The translations under genes and the position numbers were made by a program. Source: Bacteroidota bacterium (GTDB taxonomy: Bacteria; Bacteroidota; Ignavibacteria; UBA10030; SZUA-254). From it: a stretch of 64,000 nucleotides of DNA. Shown here piece after piece: positions 2,866-47,205 of this stretch. The DNA is taken from NCBI GenBank assembly GCA_020056225.1, contig JAGVIE010000013.1:62001-126000 (forward strand). The letters run 5' to 3'. Within the stretch, counting starts at the first letter, position 1, and each line of letters starts with the position of its first letter. Below the pieces are notes generated by a model. It had not been told where the DNA came from. It did not search any database and saw nothing but the letters and a program-made list of their open reading frames with translations.

Positions 2866-5496
2866 CTAGAATCTAAAAGAGAGTTCCTTTGTTCTTATCT
2901 TCGCTCTTATCGCCTCAAAGTCCATCCCTCTTGGCATAATAAACAAACATTTTCCGTTACTCCTCGCTTCCCAAAGCTCACCAATTTCTCGTTTCTCTGT
3001 GCTATCAGCGTTTGACCAGTCATTTGCGTTCTTATACTCTGTAACAAGATAACGTCCGTCATATAATTGACAAACAAAATCGGGATAAAATCGGTCAGAC
3101 GATGTCGGTAGCCAGAAGGAATGAGTGGGATGTCCAACAGGATTCCTAATAAAGTATCTTATCGCATCGAGACTGTCAATGAACTTTACACATTCAAGTT
3201 CTTCCCCATCCGACTTCAGATCCCCTACAATCTTGTAATAATGCTTCCGAAATTCATATACACCACGATATGGTATATTGTATGGGTAAGAGTTTGGATC
3301 AAAGGTGAAACACTTCTCTGGGGTTGTAATCAACGGACTAGGACAATTTGGAAGTAAGAAAGACTGGTAAGCTTTCCTTCTTGCTTCTTTTCGATATTGC
3401 TCAACTTTTTCTTCAGCAGCTTGGCGTAGTTTGTATTTGTTGTGAATAAGATAATCCAAACTTAGTCCACGAAGCTCAATAAGATCACGAACTAATCGCC
3501 TCATGAACTGGGCAAAATCGTCTGGCTCAAGGTCAAAATGCGGGATACTTCGTTCGAGCCAATTTACCAATTGCCCAACATTCCACTGCTCGCCTGCAAT
3601 CAACGTCATCTGGTTTTGAAGCGACGTAATAAATTTTGCTTTTACCTTTCCAGATTCATCTATCACAATTTCACCACGTTCACCACCTTGTCGCTCAGAA
3701 GCGAACTCAGCTTCCGTGAAGCTTGCTTCACATGCTTCAAGGCCCCAACCAAGCTCTAAAAAGTGTGTTTCTTCAAACTGTTCGAATAATTCTCCTTGTT
3801 TAACTGACAGCACGGGAATACTAAATTTCTCACCTCGTTCGGCAGGCGAGCTTTTTTCGGTAACAACCCAGCCACGAGACTCACGATAAATCCGTGCGAT
3901 TGCTGTTTGGCTTTCGGGAAGCGTCACACAATTTTCAAGCGCTTCCCGATCATCGTCGCCCATGACACCTGTAAATGTTAGTGTTTTGGTACTATGGTCG
4001 AAACTTAATTTGTCAGTGATCTCTTTCGATATTCTGGTAAGATCAGGGCTTTCGTTTAGAACCACTGCCACTTTGTTTATAGCGAACAACGGCAACTCTT
4101 CATCGCTAACTGGTGCAGGGGTAATAAAGTCTCGAGCTTCTTGGCGGTTGAATCCATTCTCGATAAGGGCATCCGTCAAAGATTCTGCTGCTTGTGCGAA
4201 ACGCTGTGAAGCAACAAACGCATAAGCAAGATTTAGCTCTCCATGGATCTTCCGCTTTGCATTGGGAAGGCGCATAACACGACCAAGAATTTGTTCTACG
4301 GCTGTGGTGGAACGTAATTCAGCAACTGAACAAAGAACATATGCAAACGGACAATCCCAGCCCTCCTTCAACGCTTGCACTGTTATTACATACTTGATTC
4401 GGCAATCGGGATCAGATAAATCAATGTTGTCAAGTTCCCACTTCGTACCAGTGGCAATTGCGATTTCTTCTTCTGGGATTCGGTGATCGTTCAGCAAACA
4501 CTCTTTCACAACTTCGAATGTAAGTGTCGGCTCATCTTTGCGGTGCGGTTGTGCCTGAAGCAGCATCACGGGACGAATAAATTCACAAGTTTTTTCACGC
4601 TCAGCACGTGCGATTTTTTCAAGCTGACTTAACGTCGCAATGGCATCGGCAAGAAGCTCTTTCCAGTGAGGACGAGTCTCCAAACGTATCGGCATTTTTA
4701 TCATGTCTTCTGCCTGTAACTCGGCTGCCGAGACACTATATAAAACATTACTTGGATTGCTCTCCGTGTCAGGTGTGGCAGTGAACTCAATGATGCACGA
4801 GGGACTGAAGCGTGCAAGCATCTCAAACGAGAGAGGTGTTCTTGCATTGTGAGCTTCATCCATAATAACAATAGGGCGATGTTTTCGTAGTACGTTTTCT
4901 AATGAAGCGATCACAACTCCATTCTCGTATTTTCTCATATTGGCCGTTACTTCAAGCGGTAGATTTTCTGTGTGACTCACCAGTGCACCTGACTCTTCAT
5001 ATACTTTTCGTCCCTCTGTTTCATCTACTCGAAATGCTTGCAACGTGGAAACGATGATTACTGTTTCTGTGCTATATGTCGACGCGGCAACGAATCGTGC
5101 TTCTATTGCATCGAAAACGGCGATAGAACCAATCGCACTTTCGAGCGCCTGACGGTAGAAGTGTTTCCGATCCCGAAGTGCCTTGAGCGTTTGGTCTTTA
5201 ATAGCATTAGACGGAACAAGCCACAGGACGACGCAGCGATATGCGTGCAGCAACTCTTTTGCTGCAACTCCCACGGTATGACAACCCACGAGAGTTTTTC
5301 CACCACCTGTCGGAATGCGTATGCACACATAGGGGAGACCTGGGAGTTCCTTCACGGTGTTGTATGACAGACCGCGCTCGTATTTTCTTCGAGTCATCTC
5401 GAAAAATGCAAGCTCAGCATCGGTGCGGCAGCATTCACGACAGTAGTCTCGCAGCGTATCGAGCGCTTTTTGCTGATAGATTTTTAGCTCAGGCAT
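2866..5496 (-). CDS. res: Type III restriction endonuclease, Res subunit
   Basis: This is the ATP-dependent nuclease/translocase subunit of a type III restriction–modification system. It works with Mod, which supplies DNA recognition. The SF2 helicase core shows Walker A 'IPTGGGKT' (about residues 62-69) and the DEAH box 'IMDEAHNA' (about 212). Helicase motif III 'EFTATP' and motif VI-like 'EQILGRVMRLP' follow. Near the C-terminus 'FYPDFVCQ…YLVTEYKN' gives the PD…ExK nuclease signature. The frame is open upstream to 5565, but the start is set at 5496. There 'GGTGGAG' inside the last codons of mod precedes ATG, one base after the mod stop, so translation is coupled. At about 876 residues the gene is full length and looks intact. 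Confidence 0.95.
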   Translation of the reverse strand: MPELKIYQQKALDTLRDYCRECCRTDAELAFFEMTRRKYERGLSYNTVKELPGLPYVCIRIPTGGGKTLVGCHTVGVAAKELLHAYRCVVLWLVPSNAIKDQTLKALRDRKHFYRQALESAIGSIAVFDAIEARFVAASTYSTETVIIVSTLQAFRVDETEGRKVYEESGALVSHTENLPLEVTANMRKYENGVVIASLENVLRKHRPIVIMDEAHNARTPLSFEMLARFSPSCIIEFTATPDTESNPSNVLYSVSAAELQAEDMIKMPIRLETRPHWKELLADAIATLSQLEKIARAEREKTCEFIRPVMLLQAQPHRKDEPTLTFEVVKECLLNDHRIPEEEIAIATGTKWELDNIDLSDPDCRIKYVITVQALKEGWDCPFAYVLCSVAELRSTTAVEQILGRVMRLPNAKRKIHGELNLAYAFVASQRFAQAAESLTDALIENGFNRQEARDFITPAPVSDEELPLFAINKVAVVLNESPDLTRISKEITDKLSFDHSTKTLTFTGVMGDDDREALENCVTLPESQTAIARIYRESRGWVVTEKSSPAERGEKFSIPVLSVKQGELFEQFEETHFLELGWGLEACEASFTEAEFASERQGGERGEIVIDESGKVKAKFITSLQNQMTLIAGEQWNVGQLVNWLERSIPHFDLEPDDFAQFMRRLVRDLIELRGLSLDYLIHNKYKLRQAAEEKVEQYRKEARRKAYQSFLLPNCPSPLITTPEKCFTFDPNSYPYNIPYRGVYEFRKHYYKIVGDLKSDGEELECVKFIDSLDAIRYFIRNPVGHPTHSFWLPTSSDRFYPDFVCQLYDGRYLVTEYKNANDWSNADSTEKREIGELWEARSNGKCLFIMPRGMDFEAIRAKIRTKELSFRF

Positions 5497-5497
5497 A

Positions 5498-7180
5498 TCA
5501 CTCCACCTTGATTGCGTAAGGAATTTGTTTGAACTTGACGTTAAGACGTTGTTGCGTAGCAGCACTTAGCAGACAACGAGTACCGTACACGACTTTTGGG
5601 CTCTCGTGTGAAGGCAGTGACTCAAGCACAGCACGTGAGAGAACATTGCCACCGTGTGTGGATTTGTCCCCGAGGATGCCGTTGTAGAGAAGATAGACTG
5701 CCCTGCCGTGCGAGACACCAAGTAATGGAGATTTGCTGCTATTGCGTTTGGGTAGCGGCTCCCCCGTCTCAATGAAGAAGACGTGTCGAGCAAGCTCATC
5801 AAACTTCACTTCGTCTCGGATATGGCCGTTGGCATCAAACAATGTGGAACCGAGGGTGCAAAATCGAAAGCCTACATCACCGTACCAATGATACGTTTTT
5901 GATATACCAGTATCGTCGCTACCCTTAGTTACGGAGGTCAATCTAGGGATCGTGTGGGTGTAACAGTGTTCACCCATCTCGACTGCTATCCAGTGCCTTC
6001 TCATCTTATGTGCTACAGCCGAGGTAGTTCCACTGCCTGCGAACGAATCGAGAATGATGTCACCTTCATCCGAAAAGTGACTCAAAAGTAACGAGATCAA
6101 GCGCTCGGGTTTCTTTCCGCTCTTGAACTCTACTCCACCCTCATGGCGGCAATTACCGAAATCAGCAGCCATGTCATAGAAGTTAAGTATAGGTAATTCT
6201 GTCATCTTGTTCTGAACCTGTTCGATGATCTCACGAGGTACACCTTGATAATATTTTCCGCGGCTTGCTTTTATTCTTTTCGGTCCAGTAAAATAGCGGT
6301 AATCAAATGAATCTTCTCCAATCCCATAGACCTTATAAAGGGCACTAAGACCATCTTGCTCTGCCCTTCCAGAGAGATAGTCTCTAAAAAAGCGACCAGA
6401 AGAATTACCATCCAAAATAGATCCGGATGCCCATATTTCCTTCAATCCCGTTATTGAACTTTCACCTTCTTTGATCTTATACTGTTCCGGCTTGAAGACT
6501 ATCACTTTCTTGTTTCCAAGAATAATTTCTTTACCTTTCTGTTTTTCTTCTACATACCACTTAAATTTATCAAGTAGATACTGGGCTGATTTCAAATTGG
6601 GTTTAGACATTGCTGATCTTCTATAAACGAGAATCTGTTCTATCTGCTTATGGAAGACCATGTCTTTTTTAAGTGTTTTCGTTTCATATCTGACTTGCAC
6701 ATATATAGTGGCAAGATAGTTCAATGGATGAAATATTTCATCCATTAATGCCTTCAAATTTGCACATTCGTTGTCGTCAATCTGGACACAAATAAAGCCG
6801 TCAGACCGTAAAAAGCTCTTCAACAACATAAGACGAGGGTACATCATACAGAGCCACTTTTCGTGTCTTGTCATGTCCTCTAAATCATTGCCCACAACCT
6901 TACCCAGCCACTCTCTAATCTCTGGGCTATTAACATTATCATTATAAATCCATTTTTCGTTTCCAGTGTTATACGGCGGATCAATATAGATGCATTTCAC
7001 CTGTTCGGCGTAGTAGGGTAAGAGCGCTTTTAGCGCAAGCAAGTTATCTCCTTGAACAAGCAAGTTACCACTGTCGGGATCACCAACAGAAAGTTTGTTG
7101 TCGCACTTAAGTAAGTGAAAAGGAACTTCCTTATGATGGTTTTCGACAGCACTGCGTCCTATCCAATTGAGTGTGGCCAT
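5498..7180 (-). CDS. mod: Type III DNA methyltransferase, Mod subunit
   Basis: This is a site-specific adenine-N6-type DNA methyltransferase and the recognition subunit of the Res–Mod complex. Catalytic motif IV 'DPPYNTG' sits at residues 67-73 and the AdoMet-binding motif I 'DSFAGSGTT' comes later (about 380). This is the beta-class order usual for type III Mod enzymes. The region between them, about residues 200-350, is the likely target-recognition domain. I see no homopolymer or tetranucleotide tract that would suggest phase variation. It ends one base before the res start and follows the small upstream gene by two bases, so the three genes form one operon. It has 560 residues and is intact. 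Confidence 0.95.
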   Translation of the reverse strand: MATLNWIGRSAVENHHKEVPFHLLKCDNKLSVGDPDSGNLLVQGDNLLALKALLPYYAEQVKCIYIDPPYNTGNEKWIYNDNVNSPEIREWLGKVVGNDLEDMTRHEKWLCMMYPRLMLLKSFLRSDGFICVQIDDNECANLKALMDEIFHPLNYLATIYVQVRYETKTLKKDMVFHKQIEQILVYRRSAMSKPNLKSAQYLLDKFKWYVEEKQKGKEIILGNKKVIVFKPEQYKIKEGESSITGLKEIWASGSILDGNSSGRFFRDYLSGRAEQDGLSALYKVYGIGEDSFDYRYFTGPKRIKASRGKYYQGVPREIIEQVQNKMTELPILNFYDMAADFGNCRHEGGVEFKSGKKPERLISLLLSHFSDEGDIILDSFAGSGTTSAVAHKMRRHWIAVEMGEHCYTHTIPRLTSVTKGSDDTGISKTYHWYGDVGFRFCTLGSTLFDANGHIRDEVKFDELARHVFFIETGEPLPKRNSSKSPLLGVSHGRAVYLLYNGILGDKSTHGGNVLSRAVLESLPSHESPKVVYGTRCLLSAATQQRLNVKFKQIPYAIKVE

Positions 7181-7182
7181 TA

Positions 7183-7599
7183 TTATATGGTACCTCTAAT
7201 TGCCTTTTCAATCGCCTCTTTCTTCTTCTCCACATCATTCCCCCGTTTTATCCTCTCGATCGTTTTCGCATCCACCTGCTTCGCATCAATTGCATCGAGG
7301 AGTGAGGCGAGAACATTGCCAAGCCGTTTGTATTCGTCTGGTGTTAATCGGTTAGGGATTGGAGTTTCAAAGTACGTCTTTGTTGTGCTTACAATGCAGC
7401 CCTCAGGTGTAACGCCAACTTTGAGATCGTTTTTCGTGAAGCTGCACTCGTAGTGGGCAATCACATTTGCAGCAACTGCTTCGGCGACGCGCTGGATGAA
7501 TTCCGCGTCAGAAAGTAAGCGACCGTGTTGGTCGTATCGTAAAGGATTATTCATTTGCTCCGTAGAGATTCTTGGGAGCTTCGGTGTGTCTTTCTCCAT
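7183..7599 (-). CDS. Small conserved-looking protein, first gene of the type III R–M operon
   Basis: I do not recognise a family. The product is 138 residues, soluble, without a signal peptide, mixed alpha/beta in the first two thirds, and ends in a lysine/glutamate-rich helical tail. Its stop is two bases from the mod start, so it is co-transcribed with mod and res. An alternative start at 7554 (MNNPLRYDQHG) has a better ribosome site (CGGAG five bases upstream). The longer start at 7599 lies against the palindromic repeat at 7601, so its leader would be repeat sequence. A role linked to the restriction system, for example assembly or control, is inferred only from position. Confidence 0.7.
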   Translation of the reverse strand: MEKDTPKLPRISTEQMNNPLRYDQHGRLLSDAEFIQRVAEAVAANVIAHYECSFTKNDLKVGVTPEGCIVSTTKTYFETPIPNRLTPDEYKRLGNVLASLLDAIDAKQVDAKTIERIKRGNDVEKKKEAIEKAIRGTI

Positions 7600-7600
7600 T

Positions 7601-7679
7601 TGTCATTCCCGAATGCTTCTATCGGGAATCCAGACACAAGGTTCTGGATGCCCGCTAACAATCTGCGGGCATGACAGTG
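7601..7679. repeat. Palindromic repeat (core of the GTCATTCCCG family), copy D
   Basis: 'TGTCATTCCCGAATG…CGGGAATCC' is followed by 'TTCTGGATGCCCGC…GCGGGCATGACA'. This is the core also seen inside the larger element at 56504, but without its outer GGTGTCG arms. It sits immediately upstream of the restriction operon and would form strong hairpins in its leader. Confidence 0.6.
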
Positions 7680-7705
7680 GAGGGTTTAAGATCGGCTGAT
7701 TATGA

Positions 7706-7866
7706 GAAGGTATCGTACCTGAAACAACAAAGGGCGTGTTTTACTCACGCCCTTGTCGCAGGTACTGGTATACCTTCTAAAGGAAACGCTTTCAAACCAC
7801 GCCCCGTTTGGGGCGCAGTTCGAGCGTCCGTCCTTTAGAGTTTGAAATTACCAGTTTCGCGACAAG
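7706..7866 (-). ncRNA. Candidate structured RNA with nested helices, a pseudoknot and a terminator; family unknown
   Basis: Read on the minus strand, a long rod can form. CTTGTCGC (7866-7859) pairs with GCGACAAG (7759-7752). ACTGGTA (7855-7849) pairs with TACCAGT (7770-7764). CTAAAGGA (7838-7831) pairs with TCCTTTAG (7784-7777). ACGCT/AGCGT (7827-7823 with 7790-7786) and CGCCCC/GGGGCG (7815-7810 with 7805-7800) close inner stems. TTCAAAC (7846-7840) can also pair with GTTTGAA (7797-7791), crossing the CTAAAGGA helix as a pseudoknot. GGGCGTG/CACGCCC then follows, with TTTGTTGTTT after it, like an intrinsic terminator. A competing long hairpin (GAAGGTAT 7706-7713 with ATACCTTC 7770-7777, GTACCTG with CAGGTAC) overlaps the rod. 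It matches none of tRNA, tmRNA, 6S, RNase P or SRP RNA as I know them. The strand is chosen from the U-tract. Confidence 0.5.
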
Positions 7867-8050
7867 ACAGCAGCCGAAGCTACGCTAATTTATTTAATTA
7901 TTAGTTATGAGTTTTTAGTTATTAGTTCCTTGAAAATAATCTTTTTTATTTTTCGGTACGTTAATCGACAGCAGCCGAAGTTGATCTCGTCCCGATCAAG
8001 AATCGGGACGGGGCTATGCTATTTATTTAGTTATGAATTATTAATTGTAA
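7866..8050. repeat. Duplicated segment, second copy interrupted by a palindrome
   Basis: GACAGCAGCCGAAG occurs at 7866-7879 and again at 7967-7980. The first copy continues CTACGCTAATTTATTTA. The second continues with a 33-bp insertion (7981-8013) and then CTATGCTATTTATTTA. The insertion contains CGTCCCGAT (7988-7996) and ATCGGGACG (8002-8010). The palindrome may serve as a terminator for the helicase gene, but it lacks a clean U-tract. Confidence 0.6.
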
Positions 8051-47101: not shown

Positions 47102-47205
47102 AGAGGTCAAGCTTCCCCATGTCACACAAGCTTGACTTCCTACCGTTGCTTCCTTCCGGACCTGGCGGGGTTTGGAAATTGCCTGTTGCATAGGACTTGA
47201 CCTCT
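47102..47205 (-). ncRNA. ffs: Bacterial signal recognition particle RNA (4.5S, small type)
   Basis: On the minus strand AGAGGTCAAG (5' end, 47205) pairs with CTTGACCTCT (47111-47102), giving one long hairpin of about 104 bases. Its apical part has the conserved 'GCCAGGTCCGGAAGGAAGCA', which includes the GGAA tetraloop and the asymmetric loop bound by Ffh. It lies in the spacer between the pilin-like genes and the receiver gene. Confidence 0.95.

Follow-up and report, generated by a model that had tools for sequence, protein, structure and literature searches.

The window, by which we mean the whole 64,000-nucleotide stretch analysed, carries on its minus strand a type III restriction-modification (R-M) operon preceded by a structured RNA whose 5' end lies near 7883 and whose subtype-specific portions extend to the operon start codon near 7554 (Table 1). 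Members of this RNA class are about 160 nt long and consist of a 5' hairpin (P0), a closing helix (P1) around a domain that holds hairpins P2 and P4 and the long hairpin P3, and a U-run terminator, with P2 and P4 linked by a 7-bp kissing loop. Folding energy was far beyond chance on both strands (z of -8.5 for plus and -8.2 for minus), and the functional strand was decided by the homologues; as these and the genes indicate the minus strand, the plus-strand reading was dropped, and the RNA runs from right to left in the window. The ATG given for the first gene in the list of open reading frames, at 7599, falls within the leader, and a start near 7554, directly after GGAGCAA, agrees with the starts of homologous genes.

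All of the folds named in an earlier sequence-only reading were located, and they became coherent once read as the minus strand. These included the terminator-like hairpin with its U-rich tail (AAGGGCGTGAGTAAAACACGCCCTT-TGTTGTTT), the crossing helix of GGGCGTG with CACGCCC (7798-7804 with 7732-7738), and the second long hairpin (GAAGGTAT/ATACCTTC, with GTACCTG/CAGGTAC inside), which is the pairing of 7706-7721 with 7759-7777 that we call T2. The extent of 7706-7866 given in that reading was slightly too short, with conservation starting at 7883 (GTAGCTTCGGCTGC).

Several further observations concern the surroundings of the RNA. The P0 14-mer occurs a second time at 7967-7980, about 100 bases upstream on the same strand, with the rest of the structure absent, and a similar orphan pair was seen in L024. 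The palindrome between the RNA and the gene has an end segment found at four other sites in the genome, and in homologous leaders the matching position is occupied by other inserts of this sort. The 123-residue protein precedes type III R-M genes in the window and a type IIG gene in L136, and it occurs in L062 and, shortened, in L111. No reverse transcriptase was present among the neighbouring genes, and a retron or other reverse-transcriptase RNA was ruled out on that ground.

Table 1. Positions in the window of the leader RNA, the operon and other features
Feature	Positions	Strand	Remarks
P0, 5' hairpin GUAGC-UUCG-GCUGC, presumed transcript start	7870-7883	-	Near-invariant in subtype A
P0 segment AGCUUCGG			Alternative partner is the box ahead of the start codon (P0 x box duplex)
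PK2 5' strand (CUGUCUUG)	7863-7870	-	Partner is the P3 5' strand, as GCUGUCUUG x AAGGACGGA in the window
P1 5' strand (CUUGUCGCG)	7858-7866	-	Strand varies with pairing kept; significant covarying pairs
P2 hairpin GAAA-[CUGGUAA]-UUUC	7844-7858	-	Kissing 7-mer ACUGGUA at 7849-7855
P3 5' strand	7810-7839	-	
P3 3' strand, the switching strand	7776-7805	-	Also complementary to the terminator 3' strand (102/102 members)
P4 hairpin GGUA-[UACCAG]-UACC	7761-7774	-	Loop kisses the P2 loop
P1 3' strand (UGCGACAAG)	7752-7760	-	Final 3 nt shared with the local terminator
Terminator: local hairpin AAGGGCGUG/CACGCCC and U-rich run	7722-7754	-	7732-7738 (3' strand) has the P3 3' strand as a second partner
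T2 3' strand (CAGGUACGAUACCUUC)	7706-7721	-	Complementary to P4 and flanks (7759-7777)
CAGCCGAUCUU	7688-7698	-	Able to pair with P0 UCGGCUG; in most subtype A members
Repeat-like palindrome inserted in the leader	7601-7676	-	Inverted repeat; outside the conserved RNA
Box GACACACCGAAGCUCC	7575-7590	-	Alternative partners are P0 and the ribosome-site arm
GGAGCAAAUG, containing the ribosome site and, at 7554, the probable true start codon of the operon's first gene	7552-7561	-	From sequence; same start in homologues
First operon gene, 123 aa, no known family	7183-7554	-	Recurs between this RNA and R-M enzymes of different kinds
Type III DNA methyltransferase (mod)	5498-7180	-	
Type III restriction enzyme (res)	2866-5565	-	
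Bacterial small signal recognition particle RNA	47102-47202	-	Rfam RF00169

Members of the class in other genomes

A DNA search of 150 relatives and of the window's own genome returned members in other genera that were 68-79% alike, together with a second copy in the genome itself; these homologues share the 5' end, the terminator and, in this subtype, a box ahead of the start codon. The first covariance model, built from six DNA-search homologues, found 66 members in 41 of 391 relatives. Named contigs placed relatives in the Ignavibacteria, and full-length members beyond that group were present in Verrucomicrobia, Limisphaerales, Puniceicoccales and Planctomycetota. With a second model built from 67 members, the RNA was found in 63 of the 395 genomes of the window's phylum, in 75 of the 241 genomes of the Verrucomicrobiota-type phylum to which a Limisphaerales genome belongs, in 22 of the 198 genomes of the class that includes the planctomycete genome, and in none of the 85 genomes of a control phylum, that of a Poribacteria genome. 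Several of the hits in the window's phylum were located in genomes made up of a single contig. Overall, the class numbers hundreds of relatives in at least three bacterial phyla, ahead of genes for defence, nutrient uptake and surface proteins, with up to nine copies per genome. A plasmid search using the window leader gave no match, and the structure was absent at five exact matches to the 19-base P0 pattern (L063, L064, L067, L071, and L074). The P2/P4 kissing-loop pattern was also seen in two viral contigs from IMG/VR (L203, 11188-11280, and L204, 2618-2712).

The sequence-only reading could assign the RNA to no known class, and our Rfam search likewise placed no family over it. At family threshold, the Rfam 15 covariance models matched neither the window RNA nor 38 other member loci, the T-box model included, and membership in a known Rfam family was rejected for these loci. 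The open literature searched gave no description of such an RNA, and an earlier one may exist in subscription papers or preprints.

Covariation and the alternative terminator

For the covariation and kissing-loop tests, the alignments were guided or anchored by the model, and swaps, slides and tree-based simulation served as controls. In the model-guided alignment 92.6% of cells were paired, compared with 65.1% after shuffling and 40-45% after sliding, double-change cells numbered 907 compared with 253 (with none of 500 shuffles as high), and compensatory double changes were present in 49 of the 50 modelled pairs. Pairs that vary without compensation, the outcome that the sequence-only reading had named as its own refutation, were thus not what the homologues revealed; their paired positions change in a compensatory way. 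Because a model-guided alignment leans toward the model, we additionally aligned 103 members by anchors and set the resulting pair scores against those from 60 alignments simulated on the members' tree. Thirteen pairs were significant at E < 0.05, all of them within the model (seven in P1, four in the kissing loop, and one each in P4 and P3), with the kissing-loop pairs less independent than those of P1 because that loop was itself used for anchoring.

The loops of P2 and P4 were complementary over 6-7 bases in all 64 members of the first set, against 6.9% with loops swapped between members, and the kissing 7-mers of this set comprised 27 different sequences; the kissing loop was likewise present in all 40 members fetched later across the phylum. 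For P1, 7.8 of 8 pairs were kept over 56 distinct strands, compared with 4.4 when strands were swapped, and such free variation argues against a coding constraint at this helix, of the kind that the short reading frame of a ribosome-mediated (leader-peptide) attenuator would impose. A second pseudoknot (PK2) pairs the 5' segment before P1 with the 5' strand of P3 at a fixed position, at -8.3 kcal/mol for a member's own strands versus -6.3 kcal/mol for swapped ones, and it beat the swaps in 86 of 103 members. Strongly conserved bases were few and consisted of AAA/UUU in P2, GG/CC in P4, and some of P3.

The 3' strand of P3 was complementary to the segment that directly precedes the U-run in every one of 102 members, with a mean of -25.3 kcal/mol compared with -15.8 for swapped and -12.7 for shuffled strands, and therefore P3 and the long terminator are mutually exclusive. 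In all 102 this long P3-derived pairing beat the local hairpin. The local terminator was paired in 93.4% of cells in the window's class and had a computed energy near 0 in many Bacteroidota members, where it is almost absent; as the sole switch it was rejected, since those members can form only the long P3-derived terminator. The sequence-only reading had taken two exclusive folds before a terminator, upstream of an operon on the same strand, as the layout of a riboswitch or attenuator, and the homologues display the same arrangement.

In the mechanism we propose, the kissing-loop fold would keep P3 intact and RNA polymerase would read into the genes (ON), and capture of the P3 3' strand by the downstream strand would form the long terminator hairpin and stop transcription (OFF), with the balance set by some ligand, protein or physical condition able to stabilize or relax the fold, perhaps through the internal loop of P3. 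We infer the direction, with the P3 fold as ON, from geometry only. In computed energy the P3 fold was ahead of the alternative by 5.3 ± 5.7 kcal/mol (101 members). The window copy was an outlier, with the P3 fold favoured by about 20 kcal/mol and a perfect local terminator that shares just 3 nt with P1. Because its OFF fold is weaker by that amount and its local terminator is perfect, this copy may be biased toward ON or may act through the local hairpin.

Restriction-modification subtype and other downstream genes

Subtype A members, whose P0 reads GUAGCUUCGGCUGC or differs from it only slightly, typically sit before R-M genes, and R-M components of several types made up all ten of the first genes scanned, nine from the window's class and one from the Limisphaerales. 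Pairing of P0 with a box near or just upstream of the start codon was possible in 16 of 16 subtype A leaders, with P0-leader energies of -18 to -26 kcal/mol versus -13.7 ± 3.9 kcal/mol in other members, and in most subtype A leaders a hairpin with the box as its 5' arm hides the ribosome site. The T2 pairing, between P4 and sequence after the U-run, was computed at -24.9 kcal/mol in the window and ranged from -14 to -34 kcal/mol in subtype A, versus -10.8 ± 6.0 kcal/mol in the others. A second layer of control may operate on the read-through RNA, in which the box before the start codon would either hide the ribosome site or be captured by the RNA's own 5' end. RadC-like proteins, recognized by eye, were seen close downstream of subtype A members in L062 (2186-2476; Ignavibacteria) and in L205, from the Verrucomicrobiota-type phylum.

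Other members precede genes for type IX secretion cargo, lipoproteins, response regulators and a histidine kinase, and also for TonB receptors, ECF sigma factors, and FecR and RibD_C proteins. An attempt to guess a ligand from these genes was fruitless, as they were too diverse and no candidate was obvious.

Nature of the leader RNA

The next open reading frame lay on the strand of the RNA at 63 of 67 loci and at 38 of 40 further loci, and this orientation, taken with the exclusive terminator, is best explained by a cis-acting attenuator. Judging from the sequences, we consider it very probable that the leader of the type III R-M operon contains a transcription attenuator acting in cis, with an orphan riboswitch as its likeliest kind. 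The RNA shows a covarying folded domain, an exclusive expression platform (energetically weak in the window copy), and a position upstream of same-strand genes, all of which a riboswitch would be predicted to have. The sequence-only reading had held a free regulatory RNA to be equally possible, a view that these loci do not favour. A stand-alone small RNA that the terminator merely ends would accord with the fixed length of about 160 nt, the integral terminator, and the up to nine copies per genome, but having no fixed relation to the next gene is at odds with the orientation just described, and subtype A has ribosome-site and P0-box elements downstream, which leaves this reading very improbable. 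Even less credible is a DNA feature such as a mobile-element end or MITE, for although the element is multi-copy and patchy and P0 and the box resemble inverted repeats, its copies diverge yet keep their pairing, G-U pairs included, the U-run is on one strand, the orientation to genes is one-sided, and no near-identical copies with target duplications were seen.

Two other explanations accept a leader that governs termination and differ in what sets it. A protein, not a small molecule, may bind the kissing-loop fold and act as attenuator or antiterminator, and both the scarcity of strongly conserved bases and the diversity of downstream genes, as with a global regulator, would suit this; no recurring co-located regulator gene was seen, however, and with the RNA in several phyla such a protein would need to be widespread, so we regard it as possible but unlikely. 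TonB receptors, secreted proteins and R-M genes are often expressed in part of a population only, and a switch without any ligand, decided by folding kinetics, temperature or magnesium, could make the expression of such surface and defence genes noisy or dependent on conditions. The near balance of the two folds in computed energy among the 101 members is consistent with this, but the kissing loop and second pseudoknot exceed the needs of a simple thermosensor, and we think such a switch rather improbable.

As a putative riboswitch, the RNA resembles the purine and lysine riboswitches in its closing helix P1, in two hairpins tied by loop-loop pairing, and in a downstream terminator. In contrast to those, the kissing hairpins P2 and P4 flank a long P3, their kissing sequence varies freely (27 versions), the 5' strand of the terminator comes from the core helix P3, and no Rfam model matches. 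With T-box leaders it shares the use of a terminator/antiterminator leader RNA for many genes per genome, but here the downstream genes are not amino-acid related and no Rfam model, T-box included, was matched. Protein-dependent leader RNAs such as LoaP targets and HK022 put also let polymerase through terminators before long genes or operons, whereas here the terminator belongs to the RNA and excludes its core helix. The orphan motifs from surveys (Flavo-1, Chlorobi-1, SAM-Chlorobi; PMC2864571) are likewise unassigned structured RNAs of related phyla, but no Rfam model matched any tested member, a comparison that covers the motifs in Rfam, which some never entered.

Beyond the window, we give an even chance to the broader proposal that these RNAs form a widespread, undescribed riboswitch class of new architecture, in which P2 and P4 kiss around P3 as the switching helix, that would sense a cellular signal and control R-M systems, TonB receptors, ECF sigma factors and secreted surface proteins; control of the R-M operons would extend to both transcription and translation, so that anti-phage defence would be RNA-switched. 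Structured RNA classes that occur several times per genome and in at least three phyla, yet are missing from Rfam, are rare. The model specifies the exact strands involved, which makes the signal, the direction of switching, and the effect on defence testable. The occurrence of the RNA before genes for TonB receptors, sigma factors and secreted proteins points to a single signal common to them, and the link to R-M operons suggests that RNA structure can switch bacterial defence.
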